NCBI GenBank assembly: GCA_019638675.1
Contig: JAHBTE010000001.1
Span: 2,450,605-2,514,604, forward strand
Length of the DNA: 64,000 bases
Direction: 5' to 3'
Origin: Fimbriimonadaceae bacterium
GTDB taxonomy: Bacteria; Armatimonadota; Fimbriimonadia; Fimbriimonadales; Fimbriimonadaceae
Under the pieces are notes generated by a model. That model saw only the letters and a program-made list of their open reading frames with translations, searched no databases and was not told where the DNA came from. This document shows positions 32,359-38,121 of this stretch, piece by piece. The position numbers and the translations under genes are program-made. The stretch's first letter is position 1; the number at the start of each line of letters is the position of its first letter.

Positions 32359-32889
32359 ATGGAATACGGGAATTTTAATGTTATGATTTCTCCTGAGCGT
32401 GTAGAAATCCGCGAAAGAACTGGATGGAGAATCTTCTTCACAGGAATTCTCGCGCTATGCGTTTTCGGACAGATTTATCGAGTTCTCACAGATCCTCCCA
32501 CCCCTCAGCCAGGCAATATTAGTGGATATGTGCTTGAATATTTAAAACCTTTTATTTATATTGGGTTTGCATACGTACTTGGCTTCTTTCACCGCCCTCT
32601 ATTGATTGAGATCAATATTGCGAACAACGAGATCATTTATGAGGGGCGAAGTGTTCTTCCCCCGTCGCAACTCATGGTCACGCACAGGCAAGAAGCACTT
32701 TCCTCCCAGCTCATGATGCAACTTCCTGATGGTCATCTCCACACATTCACTTTCATGGGACGAAAAAAGGCGAAAAAGCTTTTAGATGCGCTGAATGAAG
32801 TTCTTCCCCCAGAAAAAGAACGTTGGAAAGAATTTCAACGAGAATTCAATCTTCGCCGAGTGGGACAGAGTGCTGAGACCATGTTATGA
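32359..32889 (+). CDS. Two-TM PH-like small membrane protein (paralog family)
   Basis: 176 aa. Two membrane helices (about residues 24-42 and 60-76), LLIEINIANNEIIYEGRSVLPPSQL, a strand-rich domain and a clear last helix (RKKAKKLLDALNEVLPPEKERW). A TACAAT box at 32332-32337 would put the transcription start about 15 nt before the ATG. It overlaps the next family member by 4 bp (ATGA), so the two are translationally coupled. Function unknown. Confidence 0.7.
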   Translation: MEYGNFNVMISPERVEIRERTGWRIFFTGILALCVFGQIYRVLTDPPTPQPGNISGYVLEYLKPFIYIGFAYVLGFFHRPLLIEINIANNEIIYEGRSVLPPSQLMVTHRQEALSSQLMMQLPDGHLHTFTFMGRKKAKKLLDALNEVLPPEKERWKEFQREFNLRRVGQSAETML

Positions 32890-33410
32890 GCACTTCAACA
32901 CTAGATAAAAATGCGCTTAAGCCTCTTACGGAAGAACTCGGCTTAGAATTTTTTCTTAACGATTTTACAGATTTGGTATTTGGTGCTTCCCAAAAAGCGA
33001 ATGCACTTTTTATTCGATCACTTTGGTTACTTCTACTGCTACGTTACACAATTCCAGCAATCGTCTCGATCTATCAGAATCAGCCTTATCTGACTACACT
33101 TCACTTTTCGTTCATCGACTTCTGTTGGCTGCTCATCGTATTAACCGCAACCTGCTACATTCGTCCTCACCACTCAATCATTACTCACGATGGGCTTTAT
33201 AAACCGTTCCCTAACGTCAAAGGTCAACGCATAATTGGAATTGGGATCGGACGCACTTGGTCTTGGCGGTATAGAGTAACTGTTCAGACTGAGCTACGCG
33301 AACATATACTGGTCGAATTTATTAATCGCAGATCAGCAGAACGACTTGAACAAATCATTCGCGAATACTTCGCGGCCATCAACCATCCCGCCGGAATCTC
33401 GTACAACTAA
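32886..33410 (+). CDS. Two-TM PH-like small membrane protein (paralog family)
   Basis: 174 aa, second gene of the coupled pair. Two membrane helices (about residues 45-63 and 78-95), a strand-rich domain with GIGIGRTWSWRYRVTVQTEL and the last helix RRSAERLEQIIREYFAAI. Its N-terminal 40 residues are soluble, unlike the other members. The next member follows after 7 bases. Function unknown. Confidence 0.7.
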   Translation: MSTSTLDKNALKPLTEELGLEFFLNDFTDLVFGASQKANALFIRSLWLLLLLRYTIPAIVSIYQNQPYLTTLHFSFIDFCWLLIVLTATCYIRPHHSIITHDGLYKPFPNVKGQRIIGIGIGRTWSWRYRVTVQTELREHILVEFINRRSAERLEQIIREYFAAINHPAGISYN

Positions 33411-33417
33411 TAAATCA

Positions 33418-33897
33418 ATGCTTTCAAAAGTCATTGCGAACCACAAAATATCTCAGACTCAACCCGATCTACTTCTGCGCTATATCCCTCAATTCAGATG
33501 GTTTATGATTTGGATTCTCTTCGGCCATGCCGCCGGCACGCTTGTGGCAGGCATGGCTCTCAACAAGCTATTTCCAAATATTATTTTTGCGATTCTCACC
33601 GCCAGCGTGGGTTTCATCCTGCTTCTGCAAAAGGTGGTTGAGATCAAGTTCTCGCCAAGCACCAACGAAGTCTTTGTGAACGGGGTTTTGCGGGGCGAGT
33701 GCGACAAGCTCATGCTATTAGAAGAAAAAGCTAGTCTGGGATCTAAGCTCAGCATCTTTACGACGGACGAACTCATCCACTCTGCAACTTACACCTCAAA
33801 AAAGCAGATCGCAGAACTCAAGGCGCTCATCGAAAGCTACCTTCCACCAATAGAAGAACGCATCGAAAATATGGGCGAGTGGCACGAGGCCAACTAG
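33418..33897 (+). CDS. Two-TM PH-like small membrane protein (paralog family)
   Basis: 159 aa from the ATG at 33418 (MLSKVIANHKIS); the frame is open further upstream but that part overlaps the previous gene. Two membrane helices (about residues 29-46 and 51-68), VEIKFSPSTNEVFVNGVLRGE, a strand-rich domain and the last helix KKQIAELKALIESYLPPIEE. Likely cotranscribed with the two genes before it. Function unknown. Confidence 0.7.
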   Translation: MLSKVIANHKISQTQPDLLLRYIPQFRWFMIWILFGHAAGTLVAGMALNKLFPNIIFAILTASVGFILLLQKVVEIKFSPSTNEVFVNGVLRGECDKLMLLEEKASLGSKLSIFTTDELIHSATYTSKKQIAELKALIESYLPPIEERIENMGEWHEAN

Positions 33898-34036: not shown

Positions 34037-34513
34037 ATGGCACAACGCGAAGACTACCGAAATACTTCTCACACAGAACAACGCGAACAAAGCGGTTATC
34101 AACAAGCGGGCGGCCCAGATCACACCACTTTGGTTCCAGAAGAAGAAATCAACCCCCAACTCCGCAAGGATGATACAGAACCCGAGTACCAAGGCGACGA
34201 CCTTGACCCACGGCTTTACCCGCAGGATAACGAAATCAACCGACGGGCTCGCAATGAAGGCAATATGCCGGGCAACGAAGCCGAAGACCCCAACCAAAAG
34301 CGGAATCCTGATTCAACCGGAAACATGCCGGGGAATGAAGAACCCCCGACTTCTGAAGAAGGCCCGTGGAGCAACGACCAACCAGATTACGGCGAATTCC
34401 AACCTGACCGTCCGCACAGACCAGGCGAAGGTGAACAAAACCCGCTCCGGATGGGCGACGGTCAAAACCCTAAAAATCCCACTCCACAAGGCACAGTCAA
34501 CGAGTCTGAATAG
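34037..34513 (+). CDS. Hydrophilic, probably disordered protein (158 aa)
   Basis: Not recognised. Rich in Asp, Glu, Asn, Gln, Pro, Gly and Arg, with almost no hydrophobic residues, and a repeated GNMPGNE motif near residues 74 and 93. Such composition recalls stress-related hydrophilins, but no motif fixes a function. Frames on both strands are open here, yet this is the frame with a terminator directly after the stop (34535-34574) and a simple, hydrophilin-like composition; the competing plus-strand frame (33987-34541) is rich in Lys/Thr/Ser and looks less natural. No clear ribosome-binding site. Confidence 0.6.
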   Translation: MAQREDYRNTSHTEQREQSGYQQAGGPDHTTLVPEEEINPQLRKDDTEPEYQGDDLDPRLYPQDNEINRRARNEGNMPGNEAEDPNQKRNPDSTGNMPGNEEPPTSEEGPWSNDQPDYGEFQPDRPHRPGEGEQNPLRMGDGQNPKNPTPQGTVNESE

Positions 34514-34534
34514 GCTCGGGCTGAGCGCAAAAAT

Positions 34535-34574
34535 GCGGTGAGTCCTTCCCGCCCGAAGGACGAGCCGCTTTTTT
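34535..34574 (+). terminator. Rho-independent terminator after the hydrophilin-like gene
   Basis: Stem GCGG..TCCTTC/GAAGGA..CCGC with a 6-nt loop, followed by TTTTTT. Confidence 0.85.
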
Positions 34575-34614
34575 GCGCGCGCGATATATTTCCACTTCAA
34601 TGAATGCTGTTTTG

Positions 34615-34667
34615 ATTCCCGCCCCGAAGATCTGGGAGGGTGGATGCGCTAGCAGACAGGAGGGGTT
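34615..34667 (+). repeat. Palindromic repeat, 'GGATGCGC' variant, solo forward copy
   Basis: ATTCCCGCCCCGAAGATC, then TGGGAGGGTGGATGCGCTAG and CAGACAGGAGGGGTT. Nearly identical to 35111-35164, so it duplicates along with the ncRNA unit. Confidence 0.85.
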
Positions 34668-34682
34668 CATTCCTACCCGCAA

Positions 34683-34750
34683 AGATATTCACACTGTGTG
34701 GAAATCTTATTAGAATTTATCGACACAATTCGTCAATAACATCGTAGAAT
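34683..34750 (+). promoter_or_regulatory. Promoter and palindromic operator of ncRNA copy 1
   Basis: Imperfect palindrome AGATATTCACAC-TGTGTGGAAATCT at 34683-34707, then a TCGACA (-35-like, 34720-34725) and TAGAAT -10 (34745-34750). The same three elements, with the same 19-nt spacing between boxes, precede copy 2. A 25-bp palindrome just upstream of a promoter is a good place for a dimeric regulator. Confidence 0.6.
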
Positions 34751-34756
34751 ACAAAC

Positions 34757-35054
34757 GTGAAGCCAACCAATAGAAGGCGGAACAAAGGAAGACCTCACCT
34801 CTGAGAGAAACCGGATTCGGTATTCGTGCCGTTTCTATCAATCGGATGGTGAAGAATCCAAAATTAGGTAACGGCTTTTTAGCCGGAACCAAACAAAGCG
34901 TAGCAGAGAGACTTGTTCTCAAAAGAAGCAAAGGTTGCGATTTATCGTGGACTGGCGCGGATTGAACTGTTGCGAGAAACGAGGAGCGAGAAATTGCAAG
35001 TCGTTTCGCAAAATTGAGTAGTCCCTGCCGCTTGCGGCGGGGCTTGCTCTTTTT
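34757..35054 (+). ncRNA. Candidate structured ncRNA, tandem copy 1 (about 298 nt)
   Basis: A transcription unit without a convincing protein: TAGAAT -10, 298 nt, then a terminator (stem 35023-35030 with 35035-35042, followed by a T-run). It aligns along its full length with copy 2. Stems kept in both copies: TTGC+GAAACGA/TCGTTTC+GCAA (34976-34982 with 35001-35007), the hairpin CGGCT/AGCCG (copy 2 has AGACT/AGTCC, with a G-C to A-T swap in the middle), ACCG/CGGT (copy 2 has AATGC/GCATT) and the inner GCGA/TTGC. A possible long-range pair joins GAATCC with GGATT. It matches no RNA family I recognise (not RNase P, tmRNA, 6S or SRP). The 5' end also forms a leaderless GTG frame (MKPTNRRRN) of 15 codons. 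Confidence 0.6.
35021..35054 (+). terminator. Terminator of ncRNA copy 1
   Basis: 8-bp stem CCCTGCCG/CGGCGGGG (one G-T pair), loop CTTG, then CTTGCTCTTTTT. A second small hairpin (GCTCT/AGAGC) follows. Confidence 0.75.
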
Positions 35055-35110
35055 AGAGCGCAGCGATTTTGCTTATCTTCTTTATGTTTGTGAAGATGTG
35101 CGCACAACTC

Positions 35111-35258
35111 ATTCCCGCCCCGAAGATCGGGAAGGGTGGATGCGCTAGCAGACAGGAGGGGTTGAAGGTTCAAGCAGATGCTGCCAACCCCTCACTTAAT
35201 CTCTCCCCAAACTTTGGGGAGAGAATTCGGAAACCCGCTCCCCAGTATTGGGGAGGGA
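35111..35258. repeat. Composite palindromic repeat (forward, inverted, extra solo hairpin)
   Basis: Forward copy 35111-35164, spacer with GCAGATGCTGCC, inverted copy about 35186-35226 (AACCCCTCA...CTCTCCCC..GGGGAGAG), then a simple CTCCCC-AGTATT-GGGGAG at 35238-35255. Same composite layout as 30691-30808. Confidence 0.85.
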
Positions 35259-35287
35259 GATAAACACCGGCCTCGCATGGGGCTGCC

Positions 35288-35356
35288 GAGATATTCACAC
35301 TATGTGGAAATCTCAATAGAATCTTTAGACACAACTCGCTCATTCCGTCGTAGAAT
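35288..35356 (+). promoter_or_regulatory. Promoter and palindromic operator of ncRNA copy 2
   Basis: Palindrome GAGATATTCACAC-TATGTGGAAATCTC at 35288-35314, TAGACA at 35326-35331 and TAGAAT at 35351-35356. In the arms the outer pair changed from A-T to G-C relative to copy 1 while symmetry was kept. Confidence 0.6.
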
Positions 35357-35362
35357 ACAAGT

Positions 35363-35660
35363 GTGAAGCCAACGAATAGAAGGCAGATCAAGGAGGAAAT
35401 CTTCCATGAAAGGAAATGCAAATAGCATTCGTGCCGTTCGCACCAATCAGGGGATGAAGAATCCAAAGTTTGATAAAGACTCTTGTAGTCCGAATCAGCT
35501 AAGACGCGACAGAGAGACTCGTTCTCATATGAAGCAAGGCGGCGATAATAACGCAGGCTGAGTGGATTGAACTGTTGCGACGAAACGAGGAGCGAGCAAT
35601 CGCAATTCGTTTCACAAATTGAGTAGCGACCTCGCCGTTTTCGGCGGGGTTTGCTCATTT
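35363..35660 (+). ncRNA. Candidate structured ncRNA, tandem copy 2 (about 298 nt)
   Basis: Paralog of the RNA at 34757. Same promoter, same length to the terminator (stem 35630-35637 with 35642-35649), same conserved blocks: GTGAAGCCAACNAATAGAAGGC at the 5' end, ATTCGTGCCGTT, GAAGAATCCAAA, GAGAGACT, GATTGAACTGTTGCGA and GAAACGAGGAGCGAG. The best conserved blocks lie after the stop codon of the possible 51-codon frame (ATG 35405 region, AGGAGG upstream), which argues for RNA function. The alternative is that each unit also encodes a short peptide (IRAV...KNPK shared). Confidence 0.6.
35624..35660 (+). terminator. Terminator of ncRNA copy 2
   Basis: 8-bp stem CCTCGCCG/CGGCGGGG with a TTTT loop, followed by TTTGCTCATTT. 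The T-G pair has moved one position relative to copy 1, but the stem is kept. Confidence 0.75.
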
Positions 35661-35746
35661 ATTAGGTGCTTATTGTTCTACAAACCGAGCACTCTTATCA
35701 TTTCTTCCCCAAACTAAGAATTAAGAATTAGTAGCTATGTGCCCGA

Positions 35747-36012
35747 GTTCCCTCCCCAAGATTGGGGAGGGCAGGGCGGGGTTGACCTGCAAAGCTCAAC
35801 TCAATAGCAACCCACCTCTTAATCTCCTCCCAGACTTGGGAGGAGGACTCAATTCCAAATTCTGCTGGGATCAAGCTCTCATCTTTGCGAAAAGTTGAGA
35901 GCCGACGGGTTCCCTCCCCAAGATTGGGGAGGATTGGGCGGGGTTGACCTGCAAAGCTCGGTTAAGTAGCAACCCTCCTCTTAATCTCCTCCCATACTTG
36001 GGAGGAGAACTC
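35747..36012. repeat. Two tandem composite palindromic repeats
   Basis: Unit 1 at 35747-35853 and unit 2 at 35908-36012. Each has a forward palindrome (GTTCCCTCCCCAAGATT-GGGGAGG), GGGCGGGGTTGACCTGCAAA, a short spacer, and an inverted half (CAACC...CTCCTCCCA-ACTTGGGAGGAG). Unit 2 ends 30 bases before the DUF559 gene. Confidence 0.9.
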
Positions 36013-36042: not shown

Positions 36043-36405
36043 ATGCGCCGGCCAGCTTCGGAAAAATCAAAATCCCACGCAAAGCATCTACGCAAATCTA
36101 TGACCAAGCCCGAGGTCTTCCTCTGGACAGAATTCCGCAAGTGGCGCGAACATGGCATCAATGTCCGCCGCCAAGTGCCAGTCGGCCACTATATTGTTGA
36201 TTTTGTACACCTCGATTCTCATCTTACGATCGAAGTCGATGGGAAAAGCCACGACGAATCCCGCGAGAATTATGACGCCGAACGCCAAGCCTATTTGGAA
36301 TCCCTTGGCTATCAAGTTCTGCGTGTTTCAAATGACGACGCCCTATTTAGAACTCAAGAAGTTGTCGAACATATTTGGAACGTCATTCAGAACTCTAAAT
36401 CTTGA
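36043..36405 (+). CDS. DUF559 (VSR-like) endonuclease-domain protein
   Basis: A 120-aa protein of the DUF559 family, which has the fold of very-short-patch-repair and other PD-(D/E)XK nucleases. Seen: TKPEVFLWTEFRKW, NVRRQVPVGHYIVDFVHLDSHLTIEVDGKSH (candidate catalytic Asp and Glu in IVDF and IEVDG), and ERQAYLESLGYQVLRVSNDD. This is a complete single-domain member. It is bracketed within 30 bp by composite palindromic repeats on both sides, which suggests that protein and repeats belong together. TAAAAT ends 6 nt before the ATG (leaderless pattern). Nuclease activity is inferred, not shown. Confidence 0.9.
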   Translation: MRRPASEKSKSHAKHLRKSMTKPEVFLWTEFRKWREHGINVRRQVPVGHYIVDFVHLDSHLTIEVDGKSHDESRENYDAERQAYLESLGYQVLRVSNDDALFRTQEVVEHIWNVIQNSKS

Positions 36406-36419
36406 TCTGTGTTTTTTGG

Positions 36420-36618
36420 GTTCCCTCCCCAGGGCGGGGTTGACCTGCAAAGCTCGGCTTAATAGCAACCCACCTCTTCATCTCCTCCCATACTTGGGAG
36501 GAGAACTCAATCCCAAAATCCATCTAATACGAGCCTTCAATTTGAAAAAATGTTATGTCTCTCCGAGTTCCCTCCCCAAGCTTGGGGAAGGTGGATGCGA
36601 CAGCGGGCAGGAGGAGTT
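36420..36618. repeat. Truncated composite repeat plus a solo copy
   Basis: 36420-36512: the forward half lacks its palindrome centre (GTTCCCTCCCCAGGGCGGGGTTGACC), while spacer and inverted half are intact. 36567-36618: a solo forward copy of the GGATGCG variant ending in GGAGGAGTT. The internal deletion removes exactly the piece from one palindrome arm to the tail. Confidence 0.85.
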
Positions 36619-36668
36619 AAGTAAAATTGCCTTGTCTCATTTGTGACACCTAGTGTTATACTAACTAC

Positions 36669-37652
36669 ATGAAGGCATGGCATATTATTGGCCTTATAGT
36701 CTTGGGTGCTGTTATCCGCTCAGCGTTTATCCCACCTGAGCCTGACCCTTATCCATCTTCCGTGCCTAGCCTAAGCACAGTCCCACCCATAGATCTATAT
36801 TCGAGCACCGCAACTAACGATAACTCCCAAGCCAATGAAGTCTCAAGTGAAACCGTTCCAGATAATACTGATATTGAGCTTGAAATCAACACGGATTCTG
36901 AAGACCTTCCTTCTGATGAGCCATCTATAACTTTTGATACTGCTCCCGAACCGTCTGCTTATCAGCAATTTGGTAAACCCCGAACTGCAATTCTCCGAGA
37001 AGCTAGAAGAGTTTCTGAGGAACTGATCAATACCAAATTTTATTCGCCTTTAATCCTAACCGATGGAAAGGTTGCTTTTTTACTTTCCGAAGCTCGATCT
37101 GAAATTTCTGCTAACTCGCTTTGGGTATGTTCACGGTTGGAATTTAAGAATGGTACATGGATTGCATCAAAAACAGAAGTATCAGAAAACTCCGAAGATT
37201 TAAGTGCTCTGGCCAAAGGCATTAGTTCACCTGAAAGCGAACTAAGCGTCGAACCTGCTATTTTAACGGGTTTAGCAGAAGCTTACTTACCAACTCGCTC
37301 ACGTGCGGATTCTAACCTAGAGAGTTATCGATCAAGCTATAGCTCGTATTCTGCTGATCAGTTAAAGGATGTCTACGCAGAGAGACTAAAAGAAATCACT
37401 GAATCCTACGAAGAGCGTTTGGCAGAACTTTCAGCAAGTTTGAGCCGATCCTCCTATGGTTCATCTTCTAGTTATCGCTCGTCATCAGACTATCATGTTA
37501 GTTGGGAGTACAAACCTCATGTTGCTGAGAATGGAAGTTATTATGGAGAGATTTCAGACATCACCTATCGACCGAAAACGGTTCATGTAGGCGGCTACTT
37601 CCGACGGGATGGTACTTATGTTCGAGGCCATTATAGAAGTAAGGGCCGGTAG
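36669..37652 (+). CDS. Anchored Ser-rich hypothetical protein (327 aa)
   Basis: Not recognised. N-terminal membrane anchor (WHIIGLIVLGAVIRSAF, residues 4-20), a Pro/Ser/Thr/Asp-rich linker (about 21-100), a globular part, a charged coiled-coil-like helix (LKDVYAERLKEITESYEERLAELS, near 230-255) and a Ser/Tyr-rich stretch. The end reads VHVGGYFRRDGTYVRGHYRSKGR, a short basic tail motif found at the end of many exported proteins. TATACT ends 6 nt before the ATG (leaderless pattern). Codon use and AT content are slightly different from the housekeeping genes. Confidence 0.65.
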   Translation: MKAWHIIGLIVLGAVIRSAFIPPEPDPYPSSVPSLSTVPPIDLYSSTATNDNSQANEVSSETVPDNTDIELEINTDSEDLPSDEPSITFDTAPEPSAYQQFGKPRTAILREARRVSEELINTKFYSPLILTDGKVAFLLSEARSEISANSLWVCSRLEFKNGTWIASKTEVSENSEDLSALAKGISSPESELSVEPAILTGLAEAYLPTRSRADSNLESYRSSYSSYSADQLKDVYAERLKEITESYEERLAELSASLSRSSYGSSSSYRSSSDYHVSWEYKPHVAENGSYYGEISDITYRPKTVHVGGYFRRDGTYVRGHYRSKGR

Positions 37653-37659
37653 TAATCGG

Positions 37660-38121
37660 TTAGAGCAAGTCCGCTAATGTCCAAACTTTGTCCTCTGCAA
37701 CATTAACTCCCTCTTCAAACTTGAAAAAGGTTCTGACTGTATTTGCCTCATAATTTGTGCTCCTTACTTCTTTAGGTGCTCCTCGCACACTGTCCCATTT
37801 CGTTAGAACGATCTTGGGCTCAGCTGGTACGGTGACCACCGGTGGAAATTGAAACTCCATAGACTTGAGTTCATGATATATTGTTTTACTCAGGGTTAAC
37901 CAATCTTCGAAATTGCGACTTTTATCATCTGTAACGTAATAGAGATATGTATGCCATTCATCGTAAATGTCTACCCAATAGTATGGCCGTGTTTTTGGTT
38001 CTTTTCTATCACCTGGATTTAGAAAACTGCCAACATACTGATTATTGAAAGACAAATGTTGGATAAGCTGATTTAAACAGGGGATGATCAATTCAGGTGA
38101 AATGAAATCTTTTACTGACAT
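37660..38121 (-). CDS. Hypothetical cytoplasmic protein (153 aa)
   Basis: Not recognised. No signal or membrane segment; aromatic-rich (YYWVDIYDEWHTYLYYV near residues 47-63). It starts inside the last codons of nrdA (10-bp overlap, ATGTCAGTAA), so it is translated from the nrdA message. Such coupling hints at a link to nucleotide metabolism, but nothing in the protein supports a specific role. Confidence 0.6.
   Translation of the reverse strand: MSVKDFISPELIIPCLNQLIQHLSFNNQYVGSFLNPGDRKEPKTRPYYWVDIYDEWHTYLYYVTDDKSRNFEDWLTLSKTIYHELKSMEFQFPPVVTVPAEPKIVLTKWDSVRGAPKEVRSTNYEANTVRTFFKFEEGVNVAEDKVWTLADLL

Follow-up and report, generated by a model that had tools for sequence, protein, structure and literature searches.

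The 64-kb window (the whole stretch of 64,000 nt that was analysed) carries on its + strand two tandem units that probably represent sibling trans-acting small RNA genes under a shared operator, derived from an old local duplication. The pair is most likely a new family within a known kind of RNA, with membership of the trans-acting class resting on putative target pairing. The two units start 606 nt apart (34683–35054 and 35289–35663) and can be aligned from end to end, as expected from the diverged full-length tandem copies described in the initial annotation: their bodies are identical in 220 of 304 alignment columns (72%), with a blastn identity of 76%. Both follow the same plan: a 23-nt palindrome, a promoter-like site, a body of ~300 nt, and a terminator-like hairpin. 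The body of copy 1, delimited by alignments and the consensus fold, spans 298 nt (34757–35054), with a 5′ end possibly at ~34723. The body of copy 2 (35363–35663) has as its ortholog the single copy of Fimbriimonadaceae bacterium ACE_ARM8.

Both copies contain the arrangement TTCACA-17-TAGAAT, with the first hexamer inside the palindrome. In copy 1, the palindrome GATATTCACACTGTGTGGAAATC (34684–34706) matches at 9 of 11 arm positions and holds the −35-like TTCACA (34688–34693), followed 17 nt later by the −10-like TAGAAT (34711–34716). In the palindrome of copy 2 (35290–35312), 8 of 11 arm positions match; TTCACA lies at 35294–35299 and TAGAAT at 35317–35322. The scan that identified both −10-like elements found four promoter-like sites where 1.0 was expected. 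A second TAGAAT, 34 nt beyond the first (34745–34750 in copy 1 and 35351–35356 in copy 2), is shared unchanged by the three known sequences, so that the copy 1 RNA possibly starts at either ~34723 or ~34757. Since 15 centres of odd-centred palindromes with at least nine arm matches occur in the 64-kb window, the copy 1 palindrome is unremarkable by symmetry alone; its putative operator role draws on its position over the −35 box and on its conservation. With up to three mismatches allowed, the palindrome is present only in the three units among the 8 genus genomes, which implies that the putative regulator is either dedicated to these sites or tolerant of others. A DnaA box was considered and rejected: near-matches to the DnaA-box motif occur twice in each unit, once within the palindrome, but the window holds 34 of them. 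A terminator stem is formed in both copies. That of copy 1 (35016–35054; 6 + 8 pairs, then TTTTT) was flagged by the terminator scan as an intrinsic terminator, whereas that of copy 2 (35621–35663), which ends in the weak tail ATTTATT, was not; the scan flagged one further site inside the body, and the two terminator-like sites found do not exceed the 1.3 expected. The initial observation of two copies, each with its own palindrome, promoter, and terminator, is partly confirmed. Homology, a promoter-like site, and a terminator-like stem are seen in both units, but with the copy 2 terminator not flagged they are candidate stand-alone RNA genes.

The consensus fold computed from the two copies reaches −70.4 kcal/mol, against an average of −37.8 when columns are shuffled (z −7.3; 0 of 300 shuffles as good), and it stays well outside the shuffled range when the terminator is left out (z −5.3; 0 of 300). 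Regional z values are −6.9 for P2, −3.9 for the P3 region, −4.9 for P4, and −7.1 for the terminator. For the 5′ 106 columns the fold is barely better than in shuffles, 14 of 300 of which equal it (z −1.8), and this 5′ third is conserved, not demonstrably structured. Single-sequence folds compared with dinucleotide shuffles gave z −3.4 (1 of 200 as good) and z −2.9 (0 of 100). Helix P2 (GGU-GGCU/AGCC-ACC) lies at 34867–34890 in copy 1 and, by pair-by-pair comparison, at 35472–35496 in copy 2. P3, an 8-bp helix absent from the initial annotation, pairs CGTAGCAG or CGCGACAG with the invariant CTGTTGCG: in copy 1 (34899–34974) it is formed by CGUAGCAG (34899–34906) and CUGUUGCG (34967–34974) and encloses a small hairpin, P3a, and in copy 2 (35505–35579, again compared pair by pair) by CGCGACAG (35505–35512) and CUGUUGCG (35572–35579). 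P4 (GAAACGA/UCGUUUC) spans 34976–35007 in copy 1, where a direct reading gives an inner GCGA-GAAA-UUGC tip with a GNRA-type loop, and 35582–35613 in copy 2, where the tip loop is GCAA.

All 44 named pairs are formed in copy 1 and in copy 2, as are 43 of 44 in ACE_ARM8, in which one outer pair of the P2 helix is broken. Two pairs, both in P2, have changed compatibly on both sides, and six show compatible one-sided changes (three in P3, one at the P4 tip, and two in the terminator). The compensated stems proposed in the initial annotation fared unevenly against this count. (C)GGCT/AGCC(G) against (A)GACT/AGTC(C) contains a true two-sided change, of one pair, and the second such pair lies in the same stem-loop. 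Pairing is likewise kept between GCGA/TTGC and GCGA/TCGC and where a G-T moves within the terminator stem, but through a one-sided change in the former and two one-sided changes in the latter. GAAACGA/TCGTTTC is unchanged, as stated. ACCG/CGGT and AATGC/GCATT had to be withdrawn: by hand reading, these hairpins occupy different alignment columns and are thus different helices, not a case of covariation. When the partners are slid, pairing drops from 99% to 33–46%, although this control favours any structure drawn from the same sequences. The covariation is equalled in 46 of 500 letter shuffles and comes from three sequences, two of them near-identical; taken alone it is therefore weak. Minimum-energy folds of the ~300-nt forms contain P2, P3, and P4 in both copies. 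In partition functions of the 332-nt forms, the P4 tip has a probability of 0.8–1.0 in all three sequences and P4 itself is supported, with weak outer pairs in copy 1; the probability of P2 is ~1 in copy 1, 0.04 in copy 2, and ~0.5 in ACE_ARM8, and that of P3 is 0.01, 0.05, and ~0.8, respectively. This difference between the two lengths suggests that the fold may depend on the true 5′ end.

Comparison with ACE_ARM8 shows strong purifying selection on copy 2, the copy for which selection between species was measured, copy 1 having no ortholog. Only 9 of 298 sites differ in the copy 2 body, none of them in the last 156 (35505–35660), compared with 111 of 476 four-fold sites of the neighbouring ribonucleotide reductase (RNR) gene (Fisher p 1.4e-16) and 17 of 176 sites of the aligned flank (p 0.003). 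The palindrome and promoter sites differ at 6 of 74 positions. The alignment between copy 2 and ACE_ARM8 collapses right after the terminator stem.

The conserved product could in principle be a protein. Copy 2 contains a 51-codon open frame (35406–35561) with AAGGAGG ahead of its ATG, and the frame is intact in ACE_ARM8 with 94% of residues identical; differences between the two fall 1, 2, and 5 on codon positions 1, 2, and 3 (p 0.09 for five of eight at third positions). By this reading, which we regard as unlikely, copy 2 and its ortholog would serve as mRNAs for a 51-residue protein, or have a dual function, and copy 1 would be a relative that has decayed or acts as RNA alone. An mRNA for a small protein should keep its frame across homologs and show third-position bias, but copy 1 has CTG at the start position and a one-base frameshift, which makes a shared protein unlikely, and the differences between copies 1 and 2 up to the shift fall 6, 12, and 7 on codon positions 1, 2, and 3. 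Codon-like constraint, which the initial annotation had named as evidence against its own proposal, is thus not apparent as a third-position excess between the copies. Moreover, the best conserved blocks lie beyond the stop of the small frame, as that annotation had noted: of the 97 columns downstream of the final sense codon, 0 differ between species and 17 between the copies, compared with 54 of 153 between the copies within the frame. The frame matches no Pfam family at E 0.1 and has no relative in viral contigs, and a protein search of the genus returned convincing matches in the window genome and ACE_ARM8 only. Two weaker matches (E 0.45 and 0.64) were rejected since both fall within longer unrelated frames, antisense to one of 564 aa in G006 and in an open frame of 322 aa in G005. 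A 162-aa frame on the minus strand over copy 2 was also set aside; counted by hand, the differences between copy 2 and ACE_ARM8 fall 3, 7, and 5 on its codon positions, and it has no counterpart in copy 1. The selected product appears better explained as an RNA than as a protein, which between species applies to copy 2. A structured RNA of no known family, as originally proposed, finds support in the column-shuffle test, the compatible pair changes, the few substitutions in copy 2, and the lack of an Rfam match.

A search of the whole 64-kb window with Rfam 15 at the gathering threshold returned 0 matches, and a permissive search of 34500–35800 returned five, each far under its own threshold, which agrees with the initial failure to place the RNA in a known family. 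A structured RNA that binds a protein (a titrating or scaffold RNA, acting for example on CsrA or RNA polymerase) rather than pairing with mRNAs is a further possibility, to which we give little weight. The strongly kept helices and the GNRA-type tip loop would suit such an RNA, and a CsrA gene is present in all 8 genomes of the genus. RNAs of the CsrB/RsmZ type are long, structured, and in some species encoded more than once in the genome, which resembles the present pair, and CsrA-titrating RNAs contain many GGA motifs in loops. However, the two RNAs contain eight and six GGA motifs against shuffled means of 6.7; GGA is therefore not enriched, and with no Rfam match either, CsrA titration was rejected.

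6S RNA has a long closing helix with a central bubble. Its model, RF00013, has no match in the window, and at E 0.1 recognised no 6S RNA in 8 of 8 genus genomes, which would also suit a protein-binding RNA here, although it detects 6S in just 5 of 14 control genomes; the 6S RNA of this lineage may be too diverged for recognition. Like the present RNA, 6S RNA is a structured stand-alone RNA, and two are found in some species, such as B. subtilis and L. pneumophila (PMC4211561), but the present RNA occurs in two species only, a distribution unfit for a 6S substitute. Dual-function short mRNAs are similar in that copy 2 and ACE_ARM8 carry the 51-codon frame with a ribosome site, and dissimilar in that copy 1 lacks the frame and conservation peaks beyond it. 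A bolder alternative, which we consider improbable, is a new Fimbriimonadaceae class of structured RNA that acts through its fold (as a protein-binding, catalytic, or dual-function RNA with the 51-residue peptide) and would answer to a regulator of its own, with the two palindromes as the sole close operators in the genome.

Sibling small RNAs are the comparison that we prefer. Established tandem siblings include OmrA/OmrB, PrrF1/PrrF2, and AbcR1/AbcR2; the AbcR1 and AbcR2 RNAs of Agrobacterium are >65% identical with similar predicted folds (PMC4211561). The present genes are also related and adjacent, with identity in 72% of columns (76% by blastn) as against >65% for AbcR1/AbcR2. They differ in their length of ~300 nt, compared with 88 and 82 nt for OmrA and OmrB (PMC4211561), and in having no Rfam family. 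In a term search, the main text of a survey of 104 candidate structured RNAs (PMC2864571) contained no words beginning with Armatimonad- or Fimbriimon-, nor OP10.

The RNA appears so far to be restricted to the window bacterium and one close relative, judging from the available sequences. In the GTDB contig collection, an exact-pattern search matched a single record, ACE_ARM8 (CP075366.1), treated as the same genome as G003, in which the single copy occupies the same locus, between a 158–173-aa gene and the RNR gene. By blastn, 4 of 61 relatives gave matches at E ≤ 0.01, two of which look like chance: 38 bases in G007, which overlap the start of a 238-aa frame and with no further resemblance seen around them, and 26 bases in G046. 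A covariance model of 196 positions (R1), run with stricter filters at the cost of some weak matches, detected candidates in 4 genomes of the family (85 searched, E ≤ 0.1) and in 3 of the phylum (291 searched, E ≤ 0.01). After inspection, 2 of the 291 were left: the window genome (two copies) and ACE_ARM8 (one). Two matches were rejected: that in G004 (E 0.004) lies inside a 667-aa frame in antisense orientation, and that in G080 (E 0.08) covers the terminator part alone. A second model (R2), with the terminator left out and laxer filters, matched 5 of 39 genomes at E ≤ 1, strongly in the window genome and ACE_ARM8 only; those in G042, G051, and G046 (E 0.04, 0.3, and 0.9) were taken as chance. 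Beside RNR in the six other genus genomes, nhmmer with filters off detected no trace of the RNA in stretches of up to 10 kb, one of just 230 bases. These neighbourhoods have few frames in common with the window or ACE_ARM8 locus, mostly DUF559-like. The six genomes are much more distant, as their RNR stretches are 79–87% identical to that of the window genome, compared with 99% for ACE_ARM8.

The interval between the RNA and RNR harbors an AAA/STAND-like ATPase in ACE_ARM8 (L012:3000-4244) and a DUF559 protein with two other frames in the window (36043–38121), and appears from these sequences to be a site of gene turnover. Upstream, the frames at 32359–32886 and 33346–33894 encode distantly related proteins (24.5% identity over 106 aa, E 1e-6) with no Pfam family. 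Two dispersed intergenic elements were also observed, each allowing up to four mismatches: (i) GGATGCGCTAGCAGACAGGAGGGGTT, with a 26-nt core and three copies in the window (30718, 34642, and 35138), and (ii) the hairpin CTCCCCAAGATTGGGGAGG, with six copies (8590, 16686, 35238, 35752, 35914, and 36572). Two of the GGATGCGCTAGCAGACAGGAGGGGTT copies lie upstream of both RNA units and may have assisted the duplication. That the pair is left over from a mobile or satellite element, which used the RNA for its own replication or immunity, is very improbable: the two-species distribution, the difference in copy number, the repeats around both copies, and the adjacent turnover would fit, but searches of plasmids (copy 1), phages (copy 2), and viral contigs (exact pattern and 51-residue peptide) gave no match, no integrase or replication family occurs among the ten proteins scanned, and strong purifying selection acts at a fixed locus.

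Under the preferred reading of sibling trans-acting small RNAs, an old local duplication would have produced two genes, each probably transcribed alone from a sigma-70-like promoter with its −35 box inside a palindromic operator. A dimeric regulator bound there could switch both genes together; the position over the −35 box would fit a repressor, whereas use of the second TAGAAT would place the palindrome near −62, which would fit an activator. Each RNA is predicted to end at its terminator stem and to fold into P2, P3 with P3a, and P4, in line with the consensus fold. The 5′ segment, conserved but weakly folded, and the unpaired GGAUUGAA, which is invariant, are likely contacts for target mRNAs or for a protein such as Hfq, whose gene is found in 8 of 8 genomes of the genus. 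The stretches in which the siblings diverge would lead them to targets that differ in part.

Literature searches, judged by title, found no publication on small RNAs of the Fimbriimonas/Armatimonadota lineage. The pair provides a defined locus, a fold, a candidate operator, and an ortholog with which small RNA regulation can be tested in this phylum. It also bears on the speed at which structured RNAs emerge or are turned over, copy 2 being 97% conserved between sister species and undetected in six other genomes of the genus.
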